Below, piece after piece: positions 2,259 to 30,488 of a stretch of 38,684 nucleotides of DNA (positions are counted from its first letter, which is position 1; every line of letters begins with the position of its first letter). The notes under the pieces are model-generated. The model saw only the letters and a program-made list of their open reading frames with translations, made no database searches and was not told the origin of the DNA. A program made the translations under genes and the position numbers. The stretch comes from an uncultured Granulosicoccaceae bacterium (GTDB taxonomy: Bacteria > Pseudomonadota > Gammaproteobacteria > Granulosicoccales > Granulosicoccaceae), in contig CALFCF010000072.1 of NCBI GenBank assembly GCA_937951345.1, positions 1 through 38,684 of the forward strand, read 5' to 3'.

Positions 2259-2288
2259 CCACGGTCTCCCGATTTAGCGGCAATTGGC

Positions 2289-11120: not shown

Positions 11121-11344
11121 CCTATTCTATTCCTCTGCATTCGATCGATCTGTATCCATACGGTGATGCGTTGATCTCTGCGTTATATTGCGGCCGTCTT
11201 GCTGCGCACGTGCACGCACTCGCTCTATCTTATAGCCTCACTATATATACGTGTCGTGCACTTGATATGACCGGCGTCGGAAGAAAGATATTGCTGGAGA
11301 GGTTTTTGCAACAGCCGGTTATCTTTCACACTTCTGTTCATGCA

Positions 11345-12553
11345 ATGTTCTTCGCTCTGAAGCTGCAAATTCCAACGGGTATCAAAATACTGTCATGGGT
11401 GCTGATCGTATCAGCTGCCTTGACTGGCTGCGGCGTGTTTGGCTGGATCGAAAGTCCAACTGATGCAGGTGCTGACGGAGGCAATCGCGGCTTTTATGCG
11501 AGCGTTGGCGGTTCGTTCTCCAATCTTGAACCGGATACATCCGATAGCACGGTTTTCTCTGTTGTTGATAGTAACGATAGCGGTTTCAACACCGGAGTGG
11601 GGCGTGATTTACGCTCGCGCCTTTCGGCAGAATTGCGCCTTGGCCGTCTCGGTGCTGCTCAATTGAGTCCACCTGAATCTGTTGAGTACTCTTTCGTTGA
11701 CGTTTCTGGTGTTTATTATCCGTTAGGCGATACGCAAGCCGTAAATCGCCGCGAAGGGTTGTTGCCATTTGTTCGTGGTGGTGTCACTCGTATGATTCAC
11801 GACTCGACAGTTCTTTTAGAACAGGAAGATAACTTTTTTATTATTGCAGGGCTCGGTATCGACTATTTGTTCAGCAGTAACCTGGGAGTTCGAGCGGAAT
11901 TCAATCTACATGACACTGATGCCCGGGCTGCTCATTTTGGTATCGTCTATCGCTTTGGTGGCCGTGATCAAAACTATGTGCCTCCCGGTGCACAAGCGGA
12001 TGATAGACAAACAGCCGGCATCAGCCGGGACAGAAATATTCCTGAAAGCCAAACCCGTTCAGAGAGTCGACCGACGCGCCCACCGGTATTCCGTCCGCAG
12101 AGTAATGCGCCACCGGTAACTAACCCGACGCAAACCACGAATGACTCTGCCGTTATCGTTCAGACACCGGTTGAGAGGCAGCCACAAATTGCCCCGATAC
12201 CGGTGCAGCCAACACTGCTGTCGAATGGTGTGTTGGCGGGTGTCGAATTTGCGCAGTCTTCTGCGCGACTCGACAGACAAGCGCAACAGACACTAAGTCA
12301 GCTTGCTTCTGAGTTACGAAGAAACCCGACAACTCGTATTGAGATTCAGTCGCATACCGATGGGTCGCGCTCCCCGGAGTTTGCAATGACCCTGGCGCGG
12401 GCGCGTGTCAGGGAAATTGGTCGCTTTTTGATTGGGCAAGGTGTGCCGGTCACACAACTTGCCGCCAGAGCATTCGGTGATCAGAGGCCGCTTGTTTCAA
12501 ACCCTCGGTCACCACTAAATAATCGAACAGAAGTACTGGTAATCACGCGTTAG
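11345..12553 (+). CDS. OmpA-family lipoprotein with N-terminal beta-barrel-like domain
   Basis: From the ATG at 11345 the product is 402 residues. It has a lipoprotein signal ending in ALTGC (Cys29), then an outer-membrane beta-barrel-like region of about 160 residues (GFYASVGGSFSNLEP, RSRLSAELRLGRLG, LGVRAEFNLHDTDARAAHFG, IVYRFG). A Pro/Thr/Gln-rich linker follows, then a C-terminal OmpA peptidoglycan-binding domain (GVEFAQSSARLDRQA, IQSHTDGSRSPEFAMTLARA, LNNRTEVLV). The frame is open upstream to 11105, but that extension has no signal-like character and would overlap a terminator-like hairpin. Its barrel and OmpA parts resemble those in the products of 28599-30488 and 34755-35888, so it is one of three paralogues here. 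It probably sits in the outer membrane and tethers to the cell wall. Confidence 0.8.
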   Translation: MFFALKLQIPTGIKILSWVLIVSAALTGCGVFGWIESPTDAGADGGNRGFYASVGGSFSNLEPDTSDSTVFSVVDSNDSGFNTGVGRDLRSRLSAELRLGRLGAAQLSPPESVEYSFVDVSGVYYPLGDTQAVNRREGLLPFVRGGVTRMIHDSTVLLEQEDNFFIIAGLGIDYLFSSNLGVRAEFNLHDTDARAAHFGIVYRFGGRDQNYVPPGAQADDRQTAGISRDRNIPESQTRSESRPTRPPVFRPQSNAPPVTNPTQTTNDSAVIVQTPVERQPQIAPIPVQPTLLSNGVLAGVEFAQSSARLDRQAQQTLSQLASELRRNPTTRIEIQSHTDGSRSPEFAMTLARARVREIGRFLIGQGVPVTQLAARAFGDQRPLVSNPRSPLNNRTEVLVITR

Positions 12554-13018: not shown

Positions 13019-14902
13019 TTGAGCACATACAGTTACATAAAACCGTGTCATCTCGGTTCATTGCAATCGCGCACCGCTGTCAAGCGGTGTCGATGGTTGC
13101 GTTGTGCCTGGGTGACATTGCTGATGGTTTTGTCGGTTCCTGCGATAGCCATCGAAATAACAAGCTACATGGAAGTCCAACTCGTCAAAAATGTTTCAAC
13201 CACCTGGCAGACAGTGAGTCTTGATAATAGTTACGGCGATGCGATTGTTGTGTGTACGTACAACCTTACTGCATTCTCTGCAGCGCACCCACCTGCAGTA
13301 ACCCGGATTCGAAACATTACAGCGACAAGTTTTGACTTGCGTATTCAGGGATGGGAAGACTCGGCAGCGACTGCCAACGATGTGCATTGCCTTATTGTCG
13401 ATGAGGGCGCACACACATTGCCTGATGGACGCGATATCGAAGCACACAAAGTTGTTTCTGATCAGACCAATGGCCAGTTTGCAACAGATGGTGACTGGGA
13501 TGTTGCCTTAATGGAGGATGTCTCTGCCAGCATTGTTCATTCTTACACTGATCCGGTGGTCCTGGGTCAAGTGATGTCGTTTAACGATAACCGAGCCAGC
13601 GTTGTTCACGTTACTGATTGCGATAGACGGCAGGATCATCCGTTCCAAAGCGGACAGGCGGATGGTATCTGTGTCGGAAAGCATATTGGCCAGATCCCGT
13701 CGTCACGCGCTGATGAGACTATCGGTTACATCGTTGCCGAAGCGGGCAGTGGCACCGTTAACAACGTTTTCTTTGAGCTGGCTCTTGGTGCTGACGCTAT
13801 CGCCGGTAACGGCAACAATGACAGTTACGGATTGTCTGCAGATCACACAATAGCTGTTCTAACGCAGGCTGCTGTAGATGGTGTTAATGGCTCATGGGCC
13901 GTGTTGTATGGCACAGACCCATTGCCGAACGGCGCAATGTTTTTACAGGTTGATGAGGAAGTGTTTGTCGATGATACGACTCGCAATCACACCAATGAAC
14001 CCGTCTACTATTGGGCTTTTGCAGCTGCAGAGATAACTCTTGAGAAACAGGTAGTCAACGATCACAACGGAACGCTAACTACTACAGACTTTCAATTGAC
14101 AGCAACTGGTGTTGACACTGCGACTGGCGTTCACGGCGATGACGAAATAACCAAACAGCCGGTGCACCCAGGTGTCTACGTGCTTAGTGAAGTCAATCAG
14201 GCTGGTTACAGCGCATCCGACTGGTCATGCGTTGGTACGAGTGTTGATGGCGGCGATACTATCTCGTTGGCCAGCGGTGACAATGTAGTCTGCACTATTA
14301 CTAATGATGATGATCCGACAGCAGTTTTAACGCTTACCAAGCAGATCGTTAATGACAATGGCGGTAGCGCTGTTGATACAGATTTTACGTTATCGTTTGA
14401 CGATGGTGCCGGCGTTACTGCTAGCGGTGTGTCCGGAAGCGCCTCTGTAACATCCATAGTTGTTCCTCAAGGAAACTACACACTGACAGAAAACAATTTG
14501 GCGGGATATTCGCTGGCCTCGATAAATTGTGATGGCGACGATAGTGATGGTCTCGATGGTCTGAATCTGCTCGCAGGCGAGACAGTCACCTGTGTTTTTG
14601 TCAATGAAGATCAGGGAGTCGATCTGCAAATTGTCAAAATGGTTAGCAATAATGCTCCCAACATCGGCGACACGCTCACGTTTACGCTTTCAGTCACCAA
14701 TAGCGGTCCTGATACCGCAACAAACCTTACGATAACTGATCCACTGCCTGCTGGTTTTTCTTATATTGCTTCATCGATTTCCGGTGGTACGAGTTCAAAT
14801 GACTCCAACCCAAGTGGTTCAGGGTTGCAGTGGTCAGTGGCAAGTCTTTCACCTGGCAGTACCGAGTTACTCACTTTTCAAGCGACAGTGTTGGCGCCTT
14901 AA
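13019..14902 (+). CDS. Surface protein A: possible lectin-like head, SpaA-like domains and an incomplete C-terminal DUF11 domain
   Basis: The product is 627 residues and begins at a TTG with no strong ribosome-binding site; internal starts that still keep the signal peptide are possible. The signal peptide ends near SVPAIA (residue 44). Residues about 45-335 form an unnamed region with internal similarity (TWQTVSLDNSYGDAIVVCTY, AVTRIRNITATSFDLRIQ, ETIGYIVAEAGSG), loosely like jelly-roll or H-type lectin domains. Two SpaA/prealbumin-like domains follow (LEKQVVNDHNG...VCTITNDD and LTKQIVNDNGG...CVFVNED). The last ~95 residues are a DUF11 domain (LQIVKMVSNNAPNIGDTLTF, ITDPLPAGFSY) that stops at LLTFQATVLAP, before the usual final TNTATV strands. 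Those strands appear at the start of the next gene. Likely role: a secreted tip or adhesin subunit (inferred). Confidence 0.85.
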   Translation: MSTYSYIKPCHLGSLQSRTAVKRCRWLRCAWVTLLMVLSVPAIAIEITSYMEVQLVKNVSTTWQTVSLDNSYGDAIVVCTYNLTAFSAAHPPAVTRIRNITATSFDLRIQGWEDSAATANDVHCLIVDEGAHTLPDGRDIEAHKVVSDQTNGQFATDGDWDVALMEDVSASIVHSYTDPVVLGQVMSFNDNRASVVHVTDCDRRQDHPFQSGQADGICVGKHIGQIPSSRADETIGYIVAEAGSGTVNNVFFELALGADAIAGNGNNDSYGLSADHTIAVLTQAAVDGVNGSWAVLYGTDPLPNGAMFLQVDEEVFVDDTTRNHTNEPVYYWAFAAAEITLEKQVVNDHNGTLTTTDFQLTATGVDTATGVHGDDEITKQPVHPGVYVLSEVNQAGYSASDWSCVGTSVDGGDTISLASGDNVVCTITNDDDPTAVLTLTKQIVNDNGGSAVDTDFTLSFDDGAGVTASGVSGSASVTSIVVPQGNYTLTENNLAGYSLASINCDGDDSDGLDGLNLLAGETVTCVFVNEDQGVDLQIVKMVSNNAPNIGDTLTFTLSVTNSGPDTATNLTITDPLPAGFSYIASSISGGTSSNDSNPSGSGLQWSVASLSPGSTELLTFQATVLAP

Positions 14903-14923: not shown

Positions 14924-17900
14924 ATGAAATGTTTTTCACGGAATAATGGCATGGGTATCAAGACCTCGAAAACTACAAAGCAAGGATGCTTGAGTGCGAG
15001 AGCTTCCCGTTCTCTTGCTCTATTGCTGGCAGCGATACCACTGACAGCTTATCCCTTGACGCTGTCTGACTACCTGAATATTTCAACGGTTACTGCATCG
15101 TCCGATCAGTTTGAAACAAATTTTGATAATAACGACGATCAGGTACAAATAGTCCCTAATGCTGAAATCATCATAGTCAAAGAGATAGTTAATGACGATG
15201 GTGGTGATCTTGTCTTAAGCGATTTTTCCCTTGCAACCAGTGCTGGAGTGCCATCTTTTGGAGCAGGCGCGGTGACCGGTACCACAACCACCTACACCAG
15301 CGACACAATCTATGTGCCACCGGGTACTTACACCCTTGTGGAAGCTGATTTGCCTGGCTACACAGAAGGTTCCTGGTCATGCTCAACTGGTACTGTAGGA
15401 AATAGTGCGTTTGATTCGGGTGAAGTGACACTGGCCTTCGGTGAGCAAACGGTTTGTACGATTACCAACGACGACATTGCCCCGCAGCTGACGTTAGCAA
15501 AGACGGTTGTTAACGACAACGGTGGTGATTTGTTGGTCGATGATTTTGATATATCAATCGACGGTGTTGAAGTTGCGAATAATACCGCGACTGCAGTAAC
15601 TGCCAACATCGATGTTGTAATCAGTGAGCTGGATCTGGATGGCTACACCGAAGGTACCTGGGCGTGTGTGGATGCGAATGGATTGACCACCGGTCTGCCG
15701 ACAGCAGGTGCTGCAACAGGTGAGACATTCCAATTGAAGCAGGGATCGGATGTGACCTGTTCGATATCGAATGATGATATCGCACCGCAACTGACATTAG
15801 TGAAAACGGTTGTTAATGACAACGGTGGTGATTTGTTGGTCGATGACTTCGACATTTCCATCAACAGTGTTGAAGTTGCCAACAATACAGCGACTGCCGT
15901 ATCGGCGAACACAGATATTGTCATCAGTGAGCTAGACCTTGATGGTTATACCGAAGGTACCTGGGCGTGTGTTGATGCGAATGGTTTGACAGCCGGTTTG
16001 CCAACAGCCGGTGCAGCTACCGGTGAGACATTCCAGCTGAAGCAGGGATCGGATGTGACCTGTTCCATATCGAATGATGATATCGCACCGCAACTGACAT
16101 TAGCGAAGACCGTTGTTAACGACAACGGTGGTAACGCAGTACTTGATGATTTTGATATTTCAATTGATGGTGTTGAAGTTGCCAATAACACAGCCACCGC
16201 AGTCACTGCCAACACTGATATTTTAATCAGCGAACTTGATCTGGACGGTTACACCGAAGGCACCTGGGCGTGTGTTGACGTGAATGGTTTGACTACCGGT
16301 CTGCCGACAGCGGGTGCTGCCACGGGTGAGACATTCCAGCTGAAGCAGGGATCGGATGTGACCTGTTCGATAACTAACGATGATTTAGCGCCTCTGCTGA
16401 CTCTGACCAAAACAGTGATCAACGACAACGGTGGTGATCTGTTGGTTGAGGATTTTGATATCTCAATTGATGGAACAGAAGTCGTTAACAGCGCACCTAC
16501 ACCAGTAGCATCGAATCAGCCTATCACGATCAGTGAGCTGGATCTGGATGGTTACACAGAAGGCACATGGGCGTGTGTTGACTCTACCGGATTAACAACG
16601 GGTCTGCCAACTGCAGGTGCAGCAACAGGGGTTGATGTGACGCTGGTTGAAGGCGCGAACGTAACCTGTTCGATTTCCAACGATGATATCGCGCCGCAAC
16701 TGACATTAACGAAAACAGTTGTTAATGACAACGGTGGAGATTTGCTTGTCGATGATTTCGATATATCTATCGATGGTGTTGAAGTTGCCAACAACACAGC
16801 GACTGCTGTAACTGCCAACACAGATATTTTAATCAGCGAACTGGATCTGGATGGCTACACCGAAGGTACCTGGGCGTGTGTGGATGCGAGTGGCTTGACC
16901 ACTGGTCTTCCGACTGCAGGAGCTGCCACGGGTGAGACATTCCAGCTGAAGCAGGGATCGGATGTGACCTGTTCCATATCGAACGATGACATCGCACCGA
17001 GATTGACGTTGTCAAAAACGGTTGTTAATGACAATGGTGGTGACTTGATAGTCGATGATTTCGATATAGCAATCGATGGACTTGAAGTCATCAACAATAT
17101 GGTGACTGCAGTATCAGCGAACACGGATATCGTGATCAGTGAGCTGGATCTGGATGGCTACACCGAAGGTACCTGGGCGTGTGTGGATGCGAGTGGATTG
17201 ACCACTGGTCTGCCGACAGCAGGTGCTGCAACAGGTGAGACATTCCAGCTGAAGCAGGGATCGGATGTGACCTGTTCGATATCGAATGATGATATCGCAC
17301 CGCAACTGACGCTAGCGAAAACGGTTGTTAACGATAACGGTGGTGATTTGTTGGTCGATGATTTCGACATCTCCATCGACAGTGTTGAAGTTGCCAACAA
17401 TACAGCGACTGCCGTATCAGCGAACACGGATATCGTAATCAGTGAGCTTGATCTGGATGGTTACACCGAAGGTACCTGGGCGTGTGTGGATTCGAGTGGA
17501 TTGACCACCGGTCTGCCGACAGCAGGTGTTGCCACCGGTGAGACATTCCAGCTCAAGCAGGGTGCGGATGTGACCTGTTCGATATCGAATGATGATATCG
17601 CGCCGCAACTGACATTAGCGAAGACGGTTGTTAACGATAACGGTGGTGATTTGTTAGTCGATGATTTTGATATCTCGATTGATAGTGTTGAAGTTGCTAA
17701 CAACACCGCGACTGCGGTATCGGCGAACACGGATATCGTAATCAGTGAGCTGGACCTGGACGGTTATACCGCCGGCACGTGGGCGTGTGTGGACGCGAAT
17801 GGTTTAACTACCGGTCTGCCGACAGCAGGTGTTGCCACCGGTGAGACATTCCAGCTGAAGCAGGGATCGGATGTGACCTGTTCCATATCGAATGATGATA

Positions 17901-18493
17901 TCGCACCGCAATTGACGCTGGTCAAGACTGTTGTTAACGACAATGGCGGTACAGCAATTATCGATGACTTTGATATTTCCATCGATGGAATTGAGGTCGC
18001 CAGTGGTGTGGCAAGCCCGGTACAGGCGAATACGGATATCGTGATCAGTGAGCTTGATCTGACACCATATGCTGAAGGTACATGGGAGTGTGTGGATGCC
18101 ACTGGCTTCACAGCCGGTCTGCCGGCTGCAGGTCTCGCAACTGGCGAAACCATTCAGCTCACACAAGGTGCTGATGTGACCTGTTCGATTACCAACAACG
18201 ATCTGGGTATCGATCTGAGTATCGCAAAAACTGTAGATGACCCAACACCCAATATCGGTCAGACAATCACGTTTACCCTGACAGTAGTAAACAACGGTCC
18301 GGATGTGGCGACAGCTGTAAGTGTAAACGATGTGGTTCCTGCAGGTTTCACTTATGTAGCCGGATCTATTTCTGGTGGTGACAGCAGTAACGATGCGGAC
18401 CCCGCAGGTGGCGGTCTCGACTGGACGTTGAATTCTGTCGCAGTAGGTGTCCCGGTGGTACTTACTTTCGATGCTTTAGTAAACGTACCGTAG
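14924..18493 (+). CDS. Surface protein B: rod of nine identical-type SpaA-like repeats between split DUF11 halves
   Basis: The product is 1189 residues. The signal peptide ends near residue 43-46 (IPLTAYPLT). Residues about 47-75 (DYLNISTVTASSDQFETN, then NNDDQVQIVP) look exactly like the last strands of a DUF11 domain with no preceding part. A divergent SpaA-like domain spans 76-184. Nine 101-residue repeats span 185-1093, each with LTLxKTVVNDNGG, ISELDLDGYTEGTW, a Cys pair (WACVD and VTCSISN) and a closing NDD. Lys, Glu and Asn are placed as in isopeptide-forming CNA-B/SpaA domains. The protein ends with a DUF11 domain (IDLSIAKTVDDPTPNIGQTI) that stops at VLTFDALVNVP, again lacking the final strands. 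GAGAG at 14912-14916 is 7 nt from the ATG. B lies 21 bp after A, in the same frame. Likely role: fibre shaft. Confidence 0.9.
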   Translation: MKCFSRNNGMGIKTSKTTKQGCLSARASRSLALLLAAIPLTAYPLTLSDYLNISTVTASSDQFETNFDNNDDQVQIVPNAEIIIVKEIVNDDGGDLVLSDFSLATSAGVPSFGAGAVTGTTTTYTSDTIYVPPGTYTLVEADLPGYTEGSWSCSTGTVGNSAFDSGEVTLAFGEQTVCTITNDDIAPQLTLAKTVVNDNGGDLLVDDFDISIDGVEVANNTATAVTANIDVVISELDLDGYTEGTWACVDANGLTTGLPTAGAATGETFQLKQGSDVTCSISNDDIAPQLTLVKTVVNDNGGDLLVDDFDISINSVEVANNTATAVSANTDIVISELDLDGYTEGTWACVDANGLTAGLPTAGAATGETFQLKQGSDVTCSISNDDIAPQLTLAKTVVNDNGGNAVLDDFDISIDGVEVANNTATAVTANTDILISELDLDGYTEGTWACVDVNGLTTGLPTAGAATGETFQLKQGSDVTCSITNDDLAPLLTLTKTVINDNGGDLLVEDFDISIDGTEVVNSAPTPVASNQPITISELDLDGYTEGTWACVDSTGLTTGLPTAGAATGVDVTLVEGANVTCSISNDDIAPQLTLTKTVVNDNGGDLLVDDFDISIDGVEVANNTATAVTANTDILISELDLDGYTEGTWACVDASGLTTGLPTAGAATGETFQLKQGSDVTCSISNDDIAPRLTLSKTVVNDNGGDLIVDDFDIAIDGLEVINNMVTAVSANTDIVISELDLDGYTEGTWACVDASGLTTGLPTAGAATGETFQLKQGSDVTCSISNDDIAPQLTLAKTVVNDNGGDLLVDDFDISIDSVEVANNTATAVSANTDIVISELDLDGYTEGTWACVDSSGLTTGLPTAGVATGETFQLKQGADVTCSISNDDIAPQLTLAKTVVNDNGGDLLVDDFDISIDSVEVANNTATAVSANTDIVISELDLDGYTAGTWACVDANGLTTGLPTAGVATGETFQLKQGSDVTCSISNDDIAPQLTLVKTVVNDNGGTAIIDDFDISIDGIEVASGVASPVQANTDIVISELDLTPYAEGTWECVDATGFTAGLPAAGLATGETIQLTQGADVTCSITNNDLGIDLSIAKTVDDPTPNIGQTITFTLTVVNNGPDVATAVSVNDVVPAGFTYVAGSISGGDSSNDADPAGGGLDWTLNSVAVGVPVVLTFDALVNVP
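15476..18202 (+). repeat. Nine 303-bp tandem repeats within gene B
   Basis: Units begin at 15476, 15779, 16082, 16385, 16688, 16991, 17294, 17597 and 17900, exactly 303 bp apart. Most are nearly identical in DNA. The fourth (16385) and ninth (17900) are the most divergent. This indicates repeated homogenisation or recent duplication and makes the gene prone to copy-number change. Confidence 0.97.
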
Positions 18494-18524
18494 GTTGACG
18501 GAGCAATCTGAAGCGCGGATTGAC

Positions 18525-21500
18525 ATGAAGTTGGCACTAGCGACAAACAACCGTGTATGCGGATCAGCCCGATGGGTAAGGGCCATGCTTTGCAGCTGCT
18601 TTGGCAGCAGCAAAGTGGGCGCTTGTGCGCTGGGCTGGTTGATTGCGTCATTGCCGTTGTCAGCTGCTGCGCTTACAGGTTCAGATTTCACCAACACAGC
18701 AACCACGGCTTCCTCTCCTGACCAGTTTGAACCGGGTCTGGCTAACAACAGTGATTCGGTTGTTGTTCTGCCAAAAGGAATTACGGTAAACAAAACTGCT
18801 GATGGCAGCGCATTGTCATCACCGACGCTTGCCGGTGACACGATAACTTACACCATAGAAGTTGCTAACCCCGGATTACTTGGGCTTAACAATGTAGTTC
18901 TGGCTGACTCCATTATCAGTGCTGCTGATATCTCACTGGTAAGTGGTGATATTGATAGTGATGGTGTGCTCGATGGACAGGAGGTCTGGGTCTACACAGC
19001 TACCTACGCTATCACGCAAGCTGATCTGGATAGTAATGGTGGTGGTGATGCAGACATAGATAACACGGTAACTGTTACCACAGACGAGCTACCCCCTGCC
19101 AGCGATTCCGCAGATGTACCGATTGTACAGGCGCCGGCCTTTACTGTTGCCAAGGTTGTGGATACGGCGGCGATAAATGCTCCGACAACATTGAACTATG
19201 AAATCACTGTTACCAACACCGGTAATCTTACGTTAACCGGTCTTGCGGTAACCGATGTACTACCCGACGGCTCGAATGCTGTGTTGACAGGGCCGCTGAC
19301 AGATACTGGAACGACAGGTGCGTTGGATGTGGGCGAATCCTGGGTTTTCACCACTATCTATCCGGCGACGCAAGCAGACATTGATGCCGGTAATCTATTG
19401 CTCAATACCGTGTCTGTTACGACAACGGAAACAGATACATTGGTGCAGACGGCGACAGCACAGACAGATGTCAACGCAGTTGCTGATTTTGAAATAACTA
19501 AAGTTGTTGATCAGGCCGCTATTGGTCAACCGTCAACACTCGGATACGTTATTACAGTTGCAAATACCGGTAATGTCAGTCTGACAAACATTGCGTTGAC
19601 CGATACCTTGCCGGATGGTTCTAACGGCACAGTCGGCTCACCAGCCGGTGATGCAGGAGTCACTGGCGTACTCGATGTCGGTGAGACCTGGACGTACAAC
19701 CTGACATACGCAGCAAGCCAGGCGGATATCGATGCCGGTAACGTTCTGATCAATACGGTATCAGCGACTACAACCGAAACCGGTACTGATCCGAAAACTG
19801 CATCAGCAGAAACAACGGTTAGTCAGTCACCAGCGTTCACGGTAGATAAAACTGTTGATTTTGCATCGATTACAACACCGGGACCACTCGGTTACATCAT
19901 CACGCTGGAGAACACCGGCAACGTCTCGCTCACCGGCATCAATTTGATTGATACATTGCCTGATGGCGCGAATGCCACGCTTGTAGGTCCGACGGGCGAC
20001 ACCGGGGTGACGGGTGTAGTCGATGTTGGTGAGACCTGGCAGTACACAACCAGTTACGCAGCGTCACAAGATGACATCGATGCAGCAGTTGATCTGACTA
20101 ACCAGGTTGAAGTCTCGGTTGATCAGTTGACAGACTCTCAGTCAGCAGAGGCGACGACCACTGTGGCCACAGATCCGTCGATGTCGATTGTCAAAACAGT
20201 TGATATCGCATCGGTCAATGCGCCTCAAACACTGAGCTACACGATCGAAGTGACCAATAACGGTAACGTCACTTTAAACAATGTTTCATTGAATGACAGC
20301 TTGCCTGACGGCAGTGCAGCAACCCTGACAGGACCATTGGCTGATGCGGGAGTGGCTGGAGCACTGGATGTAGGTGAGACATGGATTTACAACGGTACTT
20401 ATGCTGTCTCACAGGCCGAAGTTGATAATGGTGCAACCTTGACCAATACCGTTGTTGCAACTGCAGATGAGCTTAGTGGTTCGACTGCGACTGATTCTGC
20501 AGTGACAACAATAAACAGACTGCCCGCGTTTGAGTTGACGAAGGTGGTTGACCAGGCTGTGATCACAACACCGAGTGTATTGAACTACACGATAACCGTC
20601 GAGAATACCGGTAATGTATCGCTTGGAAATATTGTTATCGACGACACTGCGCCGGATGGTTCAGTCGCCACTGTTGTAGGGCCGCTAACAGATACGGGTG
20701 TCACGGGGCGAATCGATGTCGGTGAAACCTGGACATGGACTGCGACCTATAACGCGACGCAATCTGATGTAGATGCCGGGGCCAACCTTGTTAACACGGT
20801 TAGTGCTAGTACGGATGAAGCAGGTTCGGCAACTGATACGGCTGAAACTGTTGTAAATCAGTCGCCCGGCATCATGATTGTCAAGGCGGGTAATACTCAA
20901 AGTTACACAGCCGCTGGCGATGTACTGGAATATACACTGACCATCAGCAACACGGGTAATGTTGCGTTGTCCGCCGTAGTGATCAATGATCCGAACGCTG
21001 ATGCCGGTTCTATCAACTGTGCACCAGGTATCCCGTCACCGTTCCTGCCAGGCAGCTCATTTGAGTGCAGTGCACAGCATACGGTTACCGCCGGCGATGT
21101 TGCCTTTACACAGGTCAACAATCAGGCATTTGTCAATGCGCAAACACCGGACGGTTCACCGGTGATGGACCCAAGTGATGTGGTCTCCATCTTCATGGAT
21201 CAACTGCCACCGGTTGCAACTGATGATTCATTTATATCGCCGGTTAGCGCTGTGCCTGTTTCGCTCGCCGGTGCGGGTAACGACAGCGATCCCAACAACG
21301 ATCTTGATCCGACAACTGTGTCGTTGATTCATCCTGCCGCGCTTGACACGGATGGTGATGGTGATTTCGATACAGTCACGGTGCCCGGTGAAGGTTCGTG
21401 GATTGTCGTTAACACCACTGGCGCAGTGGTGTTTACACCACTTCCGCAGTTTAGTGGAGATCCCACGCCACTTCCGTATACCGTTAGTGATGCAACCGGT

Positions 21501-24500
21501 TTGGTTTCAAATCAGGCGTTATTGACGATTGACTACCCGCAGACAGCGCCAACGGCTAAGGATGATTTCAAGTCGAATCCGTCACCAGCTGTGCCTGGCA
21601 ACCCGACAACGCTGAATGTACTGGCCGATAACGGTAATGGTGTTGATTCAGATCCGGAAAACGACATTGTCGTTAGCACCGTTACGCTCACTCATGCTGA
21701 TGCTATCGATTCAGATGATGATGGTGACGCGGACACACTGACTGTACCGGGCGAAGGTGTCTGGGTAGTCGATAATGCGAGTGGTGATATTACTTTCACA
21801 CCCGCAGCAGGTTTTCTGCTGGACCCCACACCTGTCACTTATACAGTTAGTGACGGTACCGGCCTTGTATCGAATGTTGCGACTGTGACTGTGGACTATC
21901 CGCAGACTGCACCAGTTGCTGTTGACGACGAGCGACTTGATCAACCCCTGGGTCAGCCGGTCACATTGGCCACGCTTGTCAATGACTCAGACCCGGAAAA
22001 CAACATTGATGTAAGCACCGTTATGTTGCTTGATCCGGCAACCGGTGATCCGCTGAGTACATTAACGGTAGCAGGGCAAGGTGTCTGGGTGGTTGATCCG
22101 CAATCCGGTGATGTGACATTTACACCGGAAACGGGATTTCTGGGTGATCCTGATCCTGTGCAATATACCGTCAGTGATACAACCGGACTGGTATCCAACG
22201 TTGCGACGCTAACCGTAACTTATGAAGAACCGGCAACACTTGCTGGTACTGTGTGGCTGGATGCAGATCGTGACGGGTTGATCGGTGTGGATGAAGAACG
22301 TAAGCCCGGCTGGATATTGCGTGTTGTCAACGATGCGGGTGTTGTTGTCGCGAGCACTACGACGGATGCAAACGGTGATTATCTGATTAACGGTTTGATA
22401 CCGGGTGTATACACGGTTGAGTTCTACAACGAAAACGATGTGTTTATGGATAGCCAGAGCACAGGTTCACCCTTGCTCGCCGGACAGACCCTAAATTTAC
22501 CACTACCTGTTGATCCCAGCGGTGTGGTGTACGACAGCCTGACACGACTACCGGTGGAAGGTGTCACGCTGAATTTGCTTAATTCGACTGGTGTGGCCGT
22601 TGATCAGAGCTGCTTGAATCAGAATCAGCAGGGCCAGGTGACGACTGCTGATGGTCTCTATGCATTTGATGTATTCCCGGGTGCGCATCCCAGCTGTCCA
22701 CTGAGTGAAGTCTACTCCATTGATCTGGCTGCGGTTCCGGATGATTATTTCCCGACGTATTCGTCAATAATTCGTGAAGAAGGTGCTGCCAGTTGTGGTG
22801 GCCCCCTACTCGGTTGTGCGGTGTCCTCTGTTTTTGACTCTGCGCCGACTGAGAATGGCTGTACGGTTGATAGTTTGCCCGGCACTGATGCCTGTGAAGT
22901 TCAAGCGCAACCAACAGCACCGGTTGGCCAGCAGGATACGCGTTACTTTGTAGAGTTCGAACTGCAGTCCGGTGATACCAATGTAATTTTTAATCACTTG
23001 CCTTTGGATGCGCGCGATAACACACCGGAAATTCTATTAAGCAAAAGTGTTGATCAGCGCGAAGCATCCGCTGGCGGTATTGTCCGGTACACGCTGATCG
23101 CGGAAAACCTCAGAGACATTTCGGCGCACAACATTCTAATCACTGATGATCCAGCACCCGGGTTCACTATCGAGCCACAGTCTGTACAACTGCAACGTAC
23201 CGGCCCTGATGCGGAGTTGGATACTGCCGACGATGAGATTACCGCACTTGGTCTGTCGCCGGCCGCTCAAGGTGGTGATGCTTATCAATTCGACACATTG
23301 ACGCTTGAGCCGGATGAGACGTTGCGTATCACCTACCTGTCACGTATTGGTGTTGGTGTTGTTGAAGGTGCACATGTCAATCGCGCTGTTGCAGAAGGTC
23401 CGGCAGGCGTTGCCAGCAATGAAGTTACAGCCACTGTACTGATTGTTGCAGATCCGGTTCTTGATCAGGCTACGTTGATCGGAAAAGTATTTAACGATCA
23501 CGATGCTGATGGTTTGCAGGATTCAGCTGACGCAACTTCGATTGTGCTGAAGAGCGACTATTACGGTTGGAACAGTCTACCGCTGCCTGATCTGGATGGA
23601 CGTCGTTCTATCAATGATGATCCGTCACGCGAGAATGTGACGATCAGAATGCCGGTAACGCAAGCCAATCACTTCCGTATTGAAACTGCAGAAGGAACAC
23701 GCATATCGGTCGACGAAAGCGGCACAATTACCGAAGCTCATGTGGGTGCAAAAGCGCGCGGTACCAATGCTCAGGATCTACGCGTTTGCACACATCGAAC
23801 TAACAGCTGGTTTACCAACAAACAGGGATTTCTGGATAACACACAGGGCGAAATTCCTGTATTGGAAATTTCAGTCAGTAACCACGGCATCAGTGAGCGT
23901 GGTTTACCCGGAGTCAGACTTGCGACTGTAACCGGATTAATTATTGAAACTGATGCGCACGGTCGTTTCAATATACCGGATGTTGATGCCGGACGCGGTG
24001 GTCTGGGACGCAACTTCATCTTGAAAGTTGATCCGTCATCGTTGCCGGATGGTGCGCGATTCACCACTGAAAATCCTTATGTGTTGCGAATTGTCAATAC
24101 GGGTTTAAACCGTATGAACTTCGGTGTGCAGGTTGATCATGGTCGAACCGATCAATATGCACGTGGACTGGCAAGTTGTCATCGCGCAACCGAACCAGCA
24201 CCTGTTGAAGGATTTAGTGTTGAAGTGAATCTGGGTTCAGTATTTTTCGATACTGACAAAGCCAATGTTCGCACTGATCAAGCAGGCATAGTTGAAGATA
24301 TTATCGCCAAATTACGTGAATACGGTGGCGGTACGATCGTGATTGAAGCGTTCACCGATTCGCGCGCCTCGGCTGCTTACAATCTTGAACTTGCAGAGCG
24401 CCGTGCTCAGACAATTCGCGAGAAAATTCGTGCAGCACTAGGCGACGACCTGATGCAACAAGTCAGTGTTGAAGTTGATCCTCAGGGACTGGAGGAGTCA

Positions 24501-24509
24501 ACCCGATGA
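18525..24509 (+). CDS. Surface protein C: giant DUF11/CshA/SdrD-B mosaic ending in a partial OmpA domain
   Basis: The product is 1994 residues from the ATG at 18525; a TTG at 18495 would add 10 residues. The signal peptide ends near LPLSAAA (residue 49). Residues 50-80 (TGSDFTNTATTASSPDQFEP, then NNSDSVVVLP) are an orphan DUF11 C-terminal part. Six or seven DUF11-like repeats follow to about 893 (TVAKVVDTAAINAPTTLNYE-type, with NTGNVSLTN and DVGETWTY). Three CshA-like repeats span about 895-1236 (VPGEGSWIVVNTTG, VTFTPETGFLGDPDPVQYTV). SdrD-B/carboxypeptidase-like domains start at AGTVWLDADRDG, and another DUF11 lies near 1501. The C-terminus is an OmpA domain (GSVFFDTDKANVRTDQAG, EAFTDSRASAAYNLELAERRA) that ends before the usual NRRV segment. 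The stop overlaps the next ATG. Likely role: a shaft or adaptor at the cell surface. Confidence 0.88.
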   Translation: MKLALATNNRVCGSARWVRAMLCSCFGSSKVGACALGWLIASLPLSAAALTGSDFTNTATTASSPDQFEPGLANNSDSVVVLPKGITVNKTADGSALSSPTLAGDTITYTIEVANPGLLGLNNVVLADSIISAADISLVSGDIDSDGVLDGQEVWVYTATYAITQADLDSNGGGDADIDNTVTVTTDELPPASDSADVPIVQAPAFTVAKVVDTAAINAPTTLNYEITVTNTGNLTLTGLAVTDVLPDGSNAVLTGPLTDTGTTGALDVGESWVFTTIYPATQADIDAGNLLLNTVSVTTTETDTLVQTATAQTDVNAVADFEITKVVDQAAIGQPSTLGYVITVANTGNVSLTNIALTDTLPDGSNGTVGSPAGDAGVTGVLDVGETWTYNLTYAASQADIDAGNVLINTVSATTTETGTDPKTASAETTVSQSPAFTVDKTVDFASITTPGPLGYIITLENTGNVSLTGINLIDTLPDGANATLVGPTGDTGVTGVVDVGETWQYTTSYAASQDDIDAAVDLTNQVEVSVDQLTDSQSAEATTTVATDPSMSIVKTVDIASVNAPQTLSYTIEVTNNGNVTLNNVSLNDSLPDGSAATLTGPLADAGVAGALDVGETWIYNGTYAVSQAEVDNGATLTNTVVATADELSGSTATDSAVTTINRLPAFELTKVVDQAVITTPSVLNYTITVENTGNVSLGNIVIDDTAPDGSVATVVGPLTDTGVTGRIDVGETWTWTATYNATQSDVDAGANLVNTVSASTDEAGSATDTAETVVNQSPGIMIVKAGNTQSYTAAGDVLEYTLTISNTGNVALSAVVINDPNADAGSINCAPGIPSPFLPGSSFECSAQHTVTAGDVAFTQVNNQAFVNAQTPDGSPVMDPSDVVSIFMDQLPPVATDDSFISPVSAVPVSLAGAGNDSDPNNDLDPTTVSLIHPAALDTDGDGDFDTVTVPGEGSWIVVNTTGAVVFTPLPQFSGDPTPLPYTVSDATGLVSNQALLTIDYPQTAPTAKDDFKSNPSPAVPGNPTTLNVLADNGNGVDSDPENDIVVSTVTLTHADAIDSDDDGDADTLTVPGEGVWVVDNASGDITFTPAAGFLLDPTPVTYTVSDGTGLVSNVATVTVDYPQTAPVAVDDERLDQPLGQPVTLATLVNDSDPENNIDVSTVMLLDPATGDPLSTLTVAGQGVWVVDPQSGDVTFTPETGFLGDPDPVQYTVSDTTGLVSNVATLTVTYEEPATLAGTVWLDADRDGLIGVDEERKPGWILRVVNDAGVVVASTTTDANGDYLINGLIPGVYTVEFYNENDVFMDSQSTGSPLLAGQTLNLPLPVDPSGVVYDSLTRLPVEGVTLNLLNSTGVAVDQSCLNQNQQGQVTTADGLYAFDVFPGAHPSCPLSEVYSIDLAAVPDDYFPTYSSIIREEGAASCGGPLLGCAVSSVFDSAPTENGCTVDSLPGTDACEVQAQPTAPVGQQDTRYFVEFELQSGDTNVIFNHLPLDARDNTPEILLSKSVDQREASAGGIVRYTLIAENLRDISAHNILITDDPAPGFTIEPQSVQLQRTGPDAELDTADDEITALGLSPAAQGGDAYQFDTLTLEPDETLRITYLSRIGVGVVEGAHVNRAVAEGPAGVASNEVTATVLIVADPVLDQATLIGKVFNDHDADGLQDSADATSIVLKSDYYGWNSLPLPDLDGRRSINDDPSRENVTIRMPVTQANHFRIETAEGTRISVDESGTITEAHVGAKARGTNAQDLRVCTHRTNSWFTNKQGFLDNTQGEIPVLEISVSNHGISERGLPGVRLATVTGLIIETDAHGRFNIPDVDAGRGGLGRNFILKVDPSSLPDGARFTTENPYVLRIVNTGLNRMNFGVQVDHGRTDQYARGLASCHRATEPAPVEGFSVEVNLGSVFFDTDKANVRTDQAGIVEDIIAKLREYGGGTIVIEAFTDSRASAAYNLELAERRAQTIREKIRAALGDDLMQQVSVEVDPQGLEESTR

Positions 24510-27500
24510 AGATGCAACAAAAGTATTTGCAGCGGCAGAGTTTTGCAGTGATGCAAGGTGTTGCGCTGAGCATTTTGGTCTTTAGCGGTTCTATGGTGAC
24601 CACAAGCCCCGCGTTTGCAGCCTCCGACACAGATGACACTGTGACCGGCGACAGTGCTGCTTACAAGCTGAAGATAATAAAGCGTGGAGAAGCTACGCCC
24701 ACCGGTGACAATGCCACCACTGAGGGTCGACAGCAGAACCGGCGGGTTGATGTGCGTTTATTGCGTAAACCACCTGAGCAGCTTGCTGTCGAAAGCAGCG
24801 CTGTGGTTCCGGGTGGAGGTAGTGTTTGGATTACGCGTGATCCTGCAGCATTAGAGCGATTACTCCGAGTTCAGACATCAGCAACTTTAACGGTGGAAGA
24901 TCAGCAGCCTGTTACGCCATTGGAATTTCAGGTTGAAACAAACTATCCGTATTTTATCGATAGCGCAGAGGTGTTGTTGTTCAGAGATGGAGACTCTTAC
25001 AGTCAGAAACCGTTACTCGCTATGCCGGTTGATATTAATGGTGTCACAGCAACAGCAGCCTGGGATCCCGGCTCCAAGGGACCGAATGATTATTCCGAGG
25101 GTGAGAGACTTCTGTTAAACGCTCTGGTGCACGGAGAGACGTTTGAATATGCGCTGCGAGTTTATGACAAAGCCGGTAATTACGACCAAACGCATACGCG
25201 CACTATACGCGTAGTTGATGCTGCCAGAAGCATCGATAGTTCTAATTCTAACGATATTGATGATGAAATATCGTTGCAGTCGATTGATTCAATCGATGAT
25301 GGATTTGAAGATATCAATAATGAGACAGGCAACCTGGGCTATGAACCGTTAGCTGTGCAGGGTGTATTGATTGATGGAGCCCGCGTACGCGTGCATGGTC
25401 AGGATCTCGGTATAAGAAGCGGTTACGAAAATCGCGTACAGATAAATGGTGAACAAGTCCAGGTTAATGATGATGGTGAATTTCTGATCGAATATTTGTT
25501 GCCTTCCGGTACGCACGAGTTCAGTGTCGCAGCCAAAGGTGATGCTGAAGGTATAGCCGGATTTGATCAGCAGCTTTCCACTCGCGTCGACACCAATTAC
25601 TTTTTTATGGTTGGTTTGGCTGATTTGACGCTCGGTGAAAACGATGTATCCGGTAGTCTGGAGCCTCTGGAAGTTGATCAGGACCGCTACGACGGTGATA
25701 TTTTTGTCGATGGGCGAGTTGCGTTCTATCTGAAAGGAAAAGTTAAGGGTAAATACCTTGTCACTGCTCAAATGGATACGGGTACTGAAGACGTATCCGA
25801 GTTGTTTGATAATTTCAATCAGAAGGATCCGCGCAGTATATTCAGACGACTTGACCCTGATCAGTACTATCCGGTTTACGGGGACGACTCGAATTTATAC
25901 GACGACACAGATAGCCAGGGTAAGTTTTACGTGCGCGTTGAGTGGGATCGCTCACGTGCGCTATGGGGTAATTTCAATACCGCGTTCAGCGGTACAGAGT
26001 TAGCTGCGTTTAATCGCAGTTTGTATGGTGCACAACTGCAATATCGCAGTCCTAAAAATACCGCTCAAGGTGATACCAAAACGGAACTCTCAGTGTTTGC
26101 ATCGGAAGCGCAAACGGCTTTCAGGCACAACGAATTTCTCGGCACAGGCGGCAGTCTTTACTATCTGCGCGATCAGGATATCGTAATTGGTTCTGAGAAA
26201 GTCTGGGTTGAGGTGAGGCAACGCGGTGCAGAACGCGTCGTAGAACGTATTCCACTGGTTGCCGGTCGTGACTACGATATTGACGAATTTCAGGGTCGTA
26301 TAATCCTGACGCGTCCGCTAGTCACGGTTTCAGGCCAGTCAGGCCCGTCAATCATTCGGGATGAGCCGATTGATGGCAATGAAACCTTTCTGGTGGTTGA
26401 CTATGAATACCTTCCGGACGATTTCGAATCTGACAATGTTACTGCCGGTTTGCGTGCGCGGCGCTGGCTGGGGGATCACGTTGCGATCGGTGCAACGGTT
26501 GCGCACGAGACACGTGATGCTGATGACTACAATATACAAGGCGTTGATTTAACCTGGAAGAAGTCTGGAAACACTTACCTGCGTGCGGAGATCGCCCGCA
26601 GTGAAGCGAGTCAGACAGCTGGAAGTTTTTTGTCTGACGATGGTGGTATATCGTTCACCGCGTTTAACAGCAATCAGGGAACAACCAGTGGCGATGCATT
26701 TAGCATTGAAGGCCGCGTTTCATTAAATGAAATCAGGCGGGGACGTAAGGCCTCGCCAGGCTCGCGTGATCTGACCGTTGGTACCTGGTATCGCTATCGC
26801 GATGGTGGCTTCTCTGTAGCTAGTCTTGATTCCGGAGAAGATACGATCGAGGCGGGTGCAGAGTTTATTGCTGATCTGAATGAGCGAGCAGTTTTGCAGG
26901 GGCGAGCAACAGTCCTGGAGCGGGATGAAGTTTCAAGGGAAACTGCAGCGAGTTTACAAGCTGACTACAGACTGACCAATAGATTGCAGATGGGTGCTGA
27001 GTTACGTGAAATTCGCGAAGAAAATCTTGCCCAGAATGTCGAAGGTGGTGCAACGCTTGCCGGTGGACAGGTCACGTATGACTTGTCTGACTTGTGGACT
27101 GTCTATGCAGCTGCACAATCAACGTTGCGTGAATCCGGCAACTACGAAAGTAACGATCAGTTCCGTCTGGGTGCAGAGTACACACTATCAAATCGATTAC
27201 TCCTGTCAGGTGAGGTATCCACTGGCGATCGCGGCGATGCGGTGCTTGCCGGTGCGGAATGGCTAGTTAGCGACACATACAGTGTATACAGTAATTTGTC
27301 ACATGAAATATCCAACCGCAACGTCACCCGACAGATCGCAACATTGGGGCAGCGAAAACAACTCACAAAACGACTCAAGGTGTTTACAGAGCATCAGTTT
27401 ACCCATGAGGATAACCGCCAGGGCGCGTCCCATACGTTGGGCGTCGACCGTCAGTTCAATCGCTACCTGAGTGCAAACCTTTCAATTCAAATTGGAAGCT

Positions 27501-28246
27501 TCGAGGATGCCGACGGGGATGTCACTGATCGCGATGCCATATCAATTGGCATAGACGGTCGTACCGACAATTTGAGAGCTGGTAGCAGATTGGAATATCG
27601 ACGCGATCGCGGTAGCAATGAAGATATTGATCAGATCGTGACCACCAATCGTTTTGAATATCAGCGCAATGATGCGCTGCGCTGGCAAGGTATTCTGGAT
27701 GCGTCTGTAACGCAGGATCAGTTAGGTGATTTTGAAGATGCGCGATTTATAGAAGCGGGACTCGGGTTTGCCTACCGACCGGTCAGCAACGATCGTTTCA
27801 ATATGCTTGGTCGATTGACCTATCTATTCGATTTGCCACCATTGTCGCAGAGCACGGAGACGGATACGCGATCTATCATAGGTAGTGTAGAAGGTATTTA
27901 TGAGCTAAACGCACATTGGAATCTGGGGGCGAAAGCAGCTCATCGTGAAGGTGAGCAGCGTTTGCAGCGTGGAGACGGACTCTGGTTTGGTAACGATGCC
28001 TCGCTCTTTGGACTACGCCTACGATATCGAGTCCCCTATGGGCTTGATCTTTTGGGAAGTTACCGCTGGCTATCATCGGAAACAACCGAAGGTGTTCGTC
28101 AGGGGGCGCTATTCTCGCTCGGTCGAACGGTGGGTGACCATCTGAACTTATCGATCGGTTACAACTTTACCGACTTTGATGACGATCTTGGTGATGACAG
28201 CTTCGATGCTCGTGGATGGTTCCTGAATCTTGTCGGGCGCTATTGA
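24506..28246 (+). CDS. Protein D: large outer-membrane beta-barrel protein beginning with an OmpA-domain tail
   Basis: The product is 1246 residues. The signal peptide ends at TTSPAFA (residue 38). Residues about 53-88 (KLKIIKRGEATPTGDNATTE, then GRQQNRRVDVRLL) match the last part of an OmpA domain, including the GR..NRRV signature, without the rest of the domain. Ig/carboxypeptidase-like stretches follow. From about residue 380 to the end there are long alternating strands rich in Arg, Tyr and Asp, ending GWFLNLVGRY with a terminal aromatic, as in outer-membrane barrels. GGAGGAG at 24491-24497 is 8 nt from the ATG, which overlaps the TGA of C (ATGA), so translation is probably coupled. No known porin family is named with confidence. 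Likely role: outer-membrane anchor or exporter for the C protein. Confidence 0.85.
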   Translation: MKMQQKYLQRQSFAVMQGVALSILVFSGSMVTTSPAFAASDTDDTVTGDSAAYKLKIIKRGEATPTGDNATTEGRQQNRRVDVRLLRKPPEQLAVESSAVVPGGGSVWITRDPAALERLLRVQTSATLTVEDQQPVTPLEFQVETNYPYFIDSAEVLLFRDGDSYSQKPLLAMPVDINGVTATAAWDPGSKGPNDYSEGERLLLNALVHGETFEYALRVYDKAGNYDQTHTRTIRVVDAARSIDSSNSNDIDDEISLQSIDSIDDGFEDINNETGNLGYEPLAVQGVLIDGARVRVHGQDLGIRSGYENRVQINGEQVQVNDDGEFLIEYLLPSGTHEFSVAAKGDAEGIAGFDQQLSTRVDTNYFFMVGLADLTLGENDVSGSLEPLEVDQDRYDGDIFVDGRVAFYLKGKVKGKYLVTAQMDTGTEDVSELFDNFNQKDPRSIFRRLDPDQYYPVYGDDSNLYDDTDSQGKFYVRVEWDRSRALWGNFNTAFSGTELAAFNRSLYGAQLQYRSPKNTAQGDTKTELSVFASEAQTAFRHNEFLGTGGSLYYLRDQDIVIGSEKVWVEVRQRGAERVVERIPLVAGRDYDIDEFQGRIILTRPLVTVSGQSGPSIIRDEPIDGNETFLVVDYEYLPDDFESDNVTAGLRARRWLGDHVAIGATVAHETRDADDYNIQGVDLTWKKSGNTYLRAEIARSEASQTAGSFLSDDGGISFTAFNSNQGTTSGDAFSIEGRVSLNEIRRGRKASPGSRDLTVGTWYRYRDGGFSVASLDSGEDTIEAGAEFIADLNERAVLQGRATVLERDEVSRETAASLQADYRLTNRLQMGAELREIREENLAQNVEGGATLAGGQVTYDLSDLWTVYAAAQSTLRESGNYESNDQFRLGAEYTLSNRLLLSGEVSTGDRGDAVLAGAEWLVSDTYSVYSNLSHEISNRNVTRQIATLGQRKQLTKRLKVFTEHQFTHEDNRQGASHTLGVDRQFNRYLSANLSIQIGSFEDADGDVTDRDAISIGIDGRTDNLRAGSRLEYRRDRGSNEDIDQIVTTNRFEYQRNDALRWQGILDASVTQDQLGDFEDARFIEAGLGFAYRPVSNDRFNMLGRLTYLFDLPPLSQSTETDTRSIIGSVEGIYELNAHWNLGAKAAHREGEQRLQRGDGLWFGNDASLFGLRLRYRVPYGLDLLGSYRWLSSETTEGVRQGALFSLGRTVGDHLNLSIGYNFTDFDDDLGDDSFDARGWFLNLVGRY

Positions 28247-28255
28247 TTGGGATAA

Positions 28256-28287
28256 CAGTGACTGAACCAACAGTTACTGGTTTTTTT
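28256..28287 (+). terminator. Intrinsic terminator after gene D
   Basis: CAGTGACTG and CAGTTACTG pair in RNA over 9 bp with one G-U, around a 6-nt loop. One G and then seven T residues follow. It lies 10 bp after the stop of D and marks the end of the A-B-C-D operon. Confidence 0.85.
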
Positions 28288-28598: not shown

Positions 28599-30488
28599 AT
28601 GAGTAGCCTATTGCGCTTTCGTACACTGTCGTTGCTGACTATGGCCGTAACACTGTTACTGCTGACGTCTTGTGCTAGCCAGCGTTCCCAATTGGCGGGA
28701 AGTGTGGGCAATCTTGTATCTATACCAGAGAACCGTGATTCTTTTCGCAAACGCTGGTACGCAGGAGCGACACTGGGGAATGCTGCTTTTGATCCGGATT
28801 TAAGCGCAACCGGTTTCAGTGTTCAAAACGGCAGTGCGTCTGCAACGCAAATCACTGGTGGCTACGATCTCCATAATCTTGTTAGCTTTGAATTCGATAG
28901 TTCGGTGCTTGGTAGTGCAGAACTTGAAGCAACCGCTGAAGTTGAATACACCTCGTTTGCCGCAAGTAGCTTGATTTATGCAGCACCGAGTGCGAACCGT
29001 TCCAGTCGCCAAAGTTGGAGTACCTTTGCTCGAGTGGGTTTAGGTTTCTCAAGCGCAGCGTCGAATGTGCGGGTACTTGACGGGCGTGATCTATCCGGTG
29101 TGGTTCTGGGGTTAGGCCTTGAGTACGGCTTTCGCAACGGTCTTGGTTTGCGACTTGAGACTACCCGGTTCCATGATGAGGCAGTATTTACTGGCATCGG
29201 TGCGGTCTTCCGTTTTGGCAGAAACACTTCGCTGGCACCGAAACTGGGAGCTGCAAAACCTTCTACATCAGAAGCTCCCGTCTACACGGGCAGTGGCGGG
29301 TTTACACAGCCGGTGGCAAACAAACCAAAATTACAGGCAGGTCTGCCCGGTGTTTTCCAACAGGACGCCCATCCAAGTCACGCAGCTAATGTTACTCCGC
29401 GGTTACCAAAATCTGCAACTGCACACTATAAAAGTAAAGTGGTTGTAGCGACCGTGCACGATCTGGACGGCGACGGCGTCGGTAACGACTCGGATGATTG
29501 CTTCAACACGGCACCGGGCACGTCGGTTAATGCAAAAGGGTGTGGTTTGTTTGATGGTGTCGTTGAGGGCGTGACCTTCAAAAACGGTTCTGCAAGCATT
29601 GACGAAACCAGTAAGCAAATTCTTGACAGGTTAGCTGTCAGGTTATTGGCATTCCCTGAAGTCCGTGTCGAAGTCCAGGCACATACAGATGACAAAGGTC
29701 CGGAATCAATAAACAAATCTGTTTCCGAAACGCGGGCACGCTTTGTCACAAACTATTTAAAGCGCCAGGGCGTGCCAGCAGAACAAATGGTAGCTGCTGG
29801 ATTGGGTGAAACCCGCCCTCGTGCTGACAATGAAACCGAAATAGGTCGTTTGTCCAACCGTCGCATTGAGCTGCGGTCATTGCCGGACCGAGAAATCGTA
29901 CCCAGGCATCTGACTGTGGTACCACCGGCAGCAGAGGTTTACTTGCTCAACAGCCAGTCAGCTCTTCCGAAACAGTCAAAATCGGCTAGCAAAGCAGTTG
30001 AAACAACAAAAACTGTAACAAATACCCGGGTAAGCAGCAAAGCTGAAGTTGAAGCTGCCATTATTGAAGAAGAGCCGGATCTGCTTGCTGCAAAAGAAAA
30101 CCAGACAGTCACACTGCCACCTCAGATCGCGATGCCAGGCACACGCCTGAACGGTGTGCTTGACGGTGTTGAGTTTAACGGCCGCACCGCCGAACTCACT
30201 GCGTCATCAGACAAGTCGCTGAACGCTATCGCCAATCAATTGGAACGATTCCGTTCCGCAAAGATTGCGATCATGGCCCACACCGATGATCAAGGTACCC
30301 GGGATGAAAATCAGACCCTATCGTTAATGCAAGCGCAAGCAGTCAAGAATTACCTCGTTGCTCGCGGGATAGAAGCCGTGCGAATTACACCGCATGGCTA
30401 TGGCAGCAGTTTGCCGGTGGCACAAAACTTGACAGCGAAGGATCGTGAGCTAAACAGTCGCGTCGAGTTACGCGTTGTTGCCCGGTAG
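28599..30488 (+). CDS. Lipoprotein with beta-barrel-like domain and two OmpA domains
   Basis: The product is 629 residues. The lipoprotein signal ends in LLLTSC (Cys25). Residues about 50-205 are barrel-like (RWYAGATLGNAAFDPDLSAT, FEFDSSVLGSAELEATAEVE, GVVLGLGLEYGFRNGLGLRL, IGAVFRFGRN). A single Asp-rich calcium-type loop (DLDGDGVGNDSDDC) leads to OmpA domain 1 (GVTFKNGSASIDETSK, VQAHTDDKGPESINKSVSET, GRLSNRRIEL). A charged linker then leads to OmpA domain 2 (GVEFNGRTAELTASSD, IMAHTDDQGTRDENQTLSLM, LNSRVELRV). Two peptidoglycan-binding-type domains in one lipoprotein is unusual. It shares the lipobox-barrel-OmpA order with the products of 11345-12553 and 34755-35888. No strong ribosome-binding site precedes the ATG. 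It follows the operon terminator, so it is probably transcribed separately. Confidence 0.85.
   Translation: MSSLLRFRTLSLLTMAVTLLLLTSCASQRSQLAGSVGNLVSIPENRDSFRKRWYAGATLGNAAFDPDLSATGFSVQNGSASATQITGGYDLHNLVSFEFDSSVLGSAELEATAEVEYTSFAASSLIYAAPSANRSSRQSWSTFARVGLGFSSAASNVRVLDGRDLSGVVLGLGLEYGFRNGLGLRLETTRFHDEAVFTGIGAVFRFGRNTSLAPKLGAAKPSTSEAPVYTGSGGFTQPVANKPKLQAGLPGVFQQDAHPSHAANVTPRLPKSATAHYKSKVVVATVHDLDGDGVGNDSDDCFNTAPGTSVNAKGCGLFDGVVEGVTFKNGSASIDETSKQILDRLAVRLLAFPEVRVEVQAHTDDKGPESINKSVSETRARFVTNYLKRQGVPAEQMVAAGLGETRPRADNETEIGRLSNRRIELRSLPDREIVPRHLTVVPPAAEVYLLNSQSALPKQSKSASKAVETTKTVTNTRVSSKAEVEAAIIEEEPDLLAAKENQTVTLPPQIAMPGTRLNGVLDGVEFNGRTAELTASSDKSLNAIANQLERFRSAKIAIMAHTDDQGTRDENQTLSLMQAQAVKNYLVARGIEAVRITPHGYGSSLPVAQNLTAKDRELNSRVELRVVAR

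Follow-up and report, generated by a model that had tools for sequence, protein, structure and literature searches.

The window examined here, a 38,684-nucleotide stretch of DNA from an uncultured, marine-type Granulosicoccaceae bacterium, contains four consecutive genes, A to D, in which every junction between two genes divides a protein domain. At each junction, the upstream protein ends with the front of a domain, and the downstream protein opens, behind its signal peptide, with exactly the part that is missing. The A/B and B/C junctions divide a DUF11 domain, such that the Lys and Asp of a Lys/Asp/Asn triad are on the upstream protein and the Asn is on the downstream one, while the C/D junction divides an OmpA domain. 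These splits are conserved among relatives, and the start of D overlaps the end of C and has its own ribosome site. In the initial annotation, the OmpA domain was counted as a third, unrelated domain type split at a gene junction; it is the third junction but only the second domain type, since A/B and B/C both split DUF11. We consider it likely that A to D are subunits of a single surface fibre in which each joint is a domain common to two consecutive proteins and the barrel of D holds the chain.

Gene organization

The coordinates of the genes and of the divided domains are collected in Table 1. The start of C is probably the ATG at 18525, in which case numbering from the TTG overstates residue positions by about 10. 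The overlap of C and D by ATGA, described in the initial annotation, is borne out by the coordinates of the two ORFs. The position of D's start within the last codons of C and the hairpin right after D fit one transcription unit whose products are made in step.

Table 1. Genes A to D and their divided domains, in window coordinates
Feature	Position	Strand	Description
Gene A	13019..14902	+	627 aa from TTG (start uncertain); signal peptide, unique N-terminal domain, two SpaA-type domains, truncated C-terminal DUF11
A tail	14618..14899	+	DUF11 front, Pfam 1-85/114; predicted isopeptide Lys540, catalytic Asp574
Gene B	14924..18493	+	1189 aa; signal peptide, DUF11 rear, SpaA-type repeats, truncated C-terminal DUF11
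B head	15050..15157	+	rear of A's DUF11; invariant Asn-Asn pair B69-70
B tail	18209..18490	+	DUF11 front, Pfam 1-85/114; Lys1102, Asp1136
Gene C	18495..24509	+	2004 aa from TTG; signal peptide, DUF11 rear, DUF11/DUF7507 and CshA repeats, SdrD_B, OmpA front
C head	18669..18773	+	rear of B's DUF11, Pfam 86-114/114; invariant Asn-Asn pair C84-85
C tail	24213..24506	+	OmpA front (beta-1 to beta-3); peptidoglycan-site Asp C1955, Arg C1970
C/D ribosome site and overlap	24494..24509	+	GGAG (24494-24497) and ATGA overlap, conserved in the family
Gene D	24506..28246	+	1246 aa; signal peptide, OmpA rear, Ig-like domains, large predicted outer-membrane beta-barrel
D signal peptide	24506..24619	+	residues 1-38 (...TTSPAFA/ASD, cleavage at the slash); assigned by eye
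D head	24659..24763	+	OmpA rear, residues 52-86, ending NRRVDVRLL
Hairpin	28256..28279	+	terminator-like, with T-run, immediately 3' of D

OmpA-domain proteins also occur elsewhere in the window. At 924-4174, genes for TolB, an OmpA protein resembling Pal and a TPR protein that binds TolA mark the end of a tol-pal cluster, and an OmpA-domain protein with a small barrel is encoded just upstream of A (11105-12553). Downstream of D are a protein with two complete OmpA domains (28599-30488) and an OmpA protein with many Asp-rich repeats of the thrombospondin-3 type (30717-35888); similarly sized genes come after D in the related locus L032.

Division of the OmpA domain between C and D

Residues 1917-1977 of C match positions 1-63 of the 98-position Pfam OmpA profile, where the match ends, and no Pfam OmpA match is obtained for D when it is searched on its own. 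Joined, the C tail and D head match the profile from 1 to 98 with 49.2 bits, compared with 38.9 bits for C alone (+10 bits), so that the complete 98-column PF00691 is reached only by the two together and neither alone suffices. That the start of D carries the missing OmpA end, as first proposed from reading the sequence, is corroborated by NCBIfam, where D 51-84 corresponds to the end portion of ten families, mostly OmpA-type. Several NCBIfam families match C and then D at adjoining positions with zero overlap: YiaD (102-166 in C, 173-205 of 206 in D), PA1041 (123-193 in C, 202-235 of 236 in D), TssL (30-103 in C, 106-136 of 137 in D) and YfiB (56-121 in C, 127-158 in D). An HMM built from intact OmpA domains only places the C tails of most loci at columns 7-75 and their D heads at approximately 81-112 of 114, and a profile-profile comparison over 168 columns places them at 35-115 (P 97%) and 121-150 (P 94%), respectively.

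The initial description of the C tail as an OmpA front without its last strand holds with respect to the front, and the boundary has to be redrawn: C keeps a beta-3 of its own (VSVEV), D brings a second beta-3 (YKLKII), and the parts exclusive to D are helix 3 and beta-4, the NRRV strand. D1955 and R1970 of C fall in conserved TD and ERRA motifs and occupy the positions of the peptidoglycan-site Asp and Arg, which are D271 and R286 in A. baumannii OmpA. The OmpA-domain fold (SCOP d.79) has the strand order 1-4-2-3, with beta-4 sitting between beta-1 and beta-2. An AlphaFold2 (AF2) model of the C tail alone, which like that of D comes from a small alignment, contains helix 1, beta-2, helix 2 and beta-3 without a beta-1 strand (pLDDT 69, pTM 0.59), so that no complete OmpA fold is predicted in C alone. 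The unformed beta-1 fits the absence of beta-4, which would normally lie beside it. The model aligns to solved OmpA domains, such as residues 220-313 of 3td3, and ends short of their C-terminus.

D itself is predicted to be a large outer-membrane barrel. Its AF2 model (residues 53-1246) begins with a beta-alpha-beta element predicted at very low confidence (pLDDT 30-42), continues with Ig-like domains and ends in about 34 consecutive strands that run to the C-terminus, giving the C-terminal antiparallel barrel of long strands that is expected of an outer-membrane beta-barrel. The best matches in a fold search are outer-membrane barrels with Z of about 15 and an rmsd near 20; as these are general outer-membrane barrels at high rmsd, we do not claim a specific barrel family for D.

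Conservation and history of the C/D junction

Judged by the sequences of its relatives, the C/D split is genuine and old. D is present in 21 of the 48 family genomes, as part of a single ORF of 2253 aa in one (G007) and as a gene separate from C in the others. In all 20 of these split loci, the start of D (ATG or GTG) and the stop of C share exactly 4 bp (ATGA or GTGA), and a GGAG-like ribosome site lies ahead of the start; these counts, like the other conservation counts given here, come from related genomes and do not represent independent events. C and D are likewise separate genes in Cocleimonas relatives. The split recurs in L089 and L092, which represent two further families of the class and have an NRRV-like strand of their own, PDRRV. 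The survey of homologues called for in the initial annotation therefore finds the split kept both within the family and beyond it. The suspicion that C and D are one ORF fails against two genes with the same overlap and ribosome site at 20 loci, and this conserved layout rules out a sequencing error or a broken gene at C/D.

Within the N-terminus of D, the OmpA rear is the best conserved piece, with a mean identity to the window of 54%, against 9% in the signal peptide, 17% and 20% in the linkers, and 27% at the start of the body. According to the intact-OmpA HMM, the front and rear have both decayed in two lineages (L017 and L035), and in L006 only the detectable rear is lost. A cysteine pair located between the signal peptide and the OmpA rear of D in most relatives (e.g., L007, L010 and L018) is absent from the D of the window.

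Fused forms are also found. In G159 (L114/L115, G159:C2:427000-464500), the C and D parts are encoded in a single open frame of 11,777 codons, in the order OmpA front, signal-peptide-like stretch (MMKNLGGLLLSAVVGTAHA) and OmpA rear, such that the stretch sits inside the OmpA domain. G007 and L037 are single-chain relatives with a complete OmpA domain. In our tree, the split forms group together, L089 and L092 joining them with weak support. The fused forms branch among their closest relatives.

In a distant clade of the class (L121-L131, L093, L060 and L082), the products of C'-like genes finish with an OmpA-like front that is truncated and degenerate (profile match P 70%) and has a conserved CCY.L.IE.E..W tail. 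A conserved motif, ..N(T/A)E..LPP...F.LW.., opens the D'-like genes, whose proteins mostly contain between one and three complete OmpA domains and otherwise none. Profile comparison finds no match to the OmpA rear in these D' heads, and no OmpA domain is found in the D' of L021; the front may therefore stand alone in this clade. At the level of these comparisons, the distant clade shows either that a front can be kept where no rear is recognisable or that the rear has been altered beyond recognition.

Divided DUF11 domains at the A/B and B/C junctions

DUF11 was recently solved and renamed CLIPPER; an isopeptide bond joins its Lys and Asn, with an Asp as the catalytic residue (crystal structure 9IFR, PMC12617251). 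In the window, A and B both stop at column 85 of the 114-column Pfam profile, so that the same split, between columns 85 and 86, is found at both junctions. The missing end follows the signal peptide in both B and C, the C head matching columns 86-114 on its own, and the joined pairs A+B and B+C each cover 1-114. The A tail aligns to 9IFR such that its Lys and Asp coincide, without a gap, with those of the crystal structure (we count a Lys-Asp spacing of 34 residues, versus 33 by the printed numbers). The second Asn of the pair in the B and C heads takes the place that the Asn has in 9IFR, 6 residues ahead of the domain end; this position was assigned from domain boundaries rather than from an aligned 9IFR tail. 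By sequence, the Lys, the catalytic Asp and the Asn stand at their 9IFR positions. Across 24 junctions, every tail (24 of 24) has the Lys and the Asp and every head (24 of 24) the Asn-Asn pair, and at each junction the reactive residues are divided between the upstream protein (Lys and Asp) and the downstream protein (Asn). The rebuilt A-B and B-C domains probably can form a spontaneous Lys-Asn isopeptide bond between two proteins.

All three splits occur together in 12 genomes (the window and 11 relatives), and the gaps and frames at A/B and B/C vary among relatives from overlap to spacing. Gene A is matched in 20 of the 48 family genomes, 16 of which carry D. The D-bearing genomes with no match to A are G007, where the genes are fused, G001 and G017, where the contigs end inside C, and G027 and G033. 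In the latter two (loci L077 and L078), a single C-type ORF exceeds 3,600 aa, A and B are not seen as separate genes, and the C/D split is retained.

The most serious alternative to joints of this kind is vestigial gene fission, in which a continuous protein broke apart, the domain ends at the N-termini are inert, and the truncated OmpA of C folds by itself. In its favour, there are single-chain relatives with a complete OmpA domain, and the distant clade retains a truncated front with no recognisable rear. Inert remnants are nonetheless difficult to reconcile with a D head that is the most conserved part of D's N-terminus, with three junctions in two folds at which the head always completes the missing columns of its partner, with the retention of Asn-Asn in every head, or with the joint decay of both OmpA halves in two lineages. 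We therefore regard fission as unlikely.

Probable pairing of the OmpA halves

We infer that the C and D halves physically pair into one OmpA domain, a proposal supported by the single ORF of G159, the conservation of the D piece and the joint decay in two lineages. A point against pairing is that C's own beta-3 might occupy the slot needed by the beta-3 of D. The same strand is relevant to a second alternative, in which the halves do pair, but for regulation or quality control, with the D head acting as a chaperone-like cap or plug and not as a permanent anchor. With a beta-3 already in C, the strand of D could be swapped out, and the D head sits between the signal peptide and the remaining barrel protein, as plug domains do. 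However, both the NRRV strand of D and the peptidoglycan-site residues of C are conserved, as expected of a stable, working OmpA domain, and the single ORF of G159 joins the two halves permanently unless it is cleaved; we judge this alternative somewhat less probable even than fission. Finally, it is very improbable that frameshifting or read-through makes the proteins as one joined chain with no split in the cell, as the constant 4-bp overlap of C and D across the family and the natural fusion in G159 might suggest, given that the frames and gaps at A/B and B/C are so variable, that D has a ribosome site of its own, and that each downstream protein opens with a signal-peptide-like stretch that would become internal upon fusion.

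Proposed assembly of the fibre

In the fibre that we propose, A, B, C and D would each be exported separately across the inner membrane by their own signal peptides, and the tail and head halves would meet outside the cytoplasm, closing one domain per joint. The B head would complete the DUF11 of the A tail, the C head would complete that of the B tail, and the D head would supply helix 3 and the NRRV strand to the OmpA domain of the C tail. The A-B and B-C domains may then seal themselves by an isopeptide bond, while the closed OmpA domain would tie the fibre to the outer-membrane barrel of D. Since C carries the binding residues, the rebuilt OmpA domain could also bind peptidoglycan in the cell wall, if the site works. 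The likely order of the fibre is from A at the tip to D at the base, and passage of A to C through the barrel of D is a guess. Docking, covalency, surface display, peptidoglycan binding and this order are all what we infer from the arrangement described above. Whether the system is a natural Tag/Catcher, with split DUF11 domains covalently joining secreted proteins and a split OmpA domain tying the fibre to both the outer-membrane barrel and the cell wall, is in our estimation an evenly balanced question; if it is, fibres would be assembled covalently without a sortase.

Comparison with known systems

We found no paper on a split OmpA domain or on a natural split isopeptide domain in the open-access literature. 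The arrangement suggests that nature builds a long surface fibre from separately exported proteins, using divided domains of two unrelated folds as plugs and sockets within one operon, and the system offers a clean test of how a fibre is attached to the outer membrane and the cell wall.

The closest single-chain counterparts are Gram-negative fibrillar adhesins whose DUF11 (CLIPPER) stalk is anchored by a C-terminal OmpA domain, such as B9T28_05395 of Acinetobacter silvestris (PMC12617251). In these and in the window, an OmpA-like anchor comes after stalk domains of the CshA and DUF11 types, and the stalk uses DUF11, the domain with a Lys-Asn isopeptide bond in crystal 9IFR. Whereas B9T28_05395 is one chain of whole domains, the stalk in the window is made of three chains in which every joint is a divided domain, and its anchor is common to C and a separate barrel protein, D. 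The anchor has the profile, the peptidoglycan-site Asp and Arg, and the NRRV strand in common with the PF00691 family (Pal, OmpA and MotB), and differs from it in being encoded by two genes as two secreted chains.

In the donor-strand complementation of chaperone-usher and type V pili, an incomplete domain is completed by the N-terminus of the next subunit, and the sequence complementarity and polarity of the window fit this principle, the polarity being the same as in chaperone-usher pili. Unlike these pili, the window divides two folds, DUF11 and OmpA, with the potential for a covalent bond. No Pfam match to a PapD-type chaperone or an usher was found in A to D or in the other large ORFs of the window, to which this search was confined.

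The engineered Isopeptag/Pilin-C and SpyTag/SpyCatcher pairs (PMC4748275, PMC5487036) also divide an isopeptide domain such that the reactive residues are on different chains, and in Isopeptag/Pilin-C the reaction is between an amine and a carboxamide with loss of ammonia (PMC4748275), as predicted for the DUF11 pairs of the window. While the Tag/Catcher pairs were designed, the division in the window is natural, conserved across genomes and located between consecutive genes of an operon, with putative reactivity. If the DUF11 joints do react, they would be nature's version of an engineered ligation tool in wide use, and would give Gram-negative bacteria a way to make covalent fibres without a sortase.
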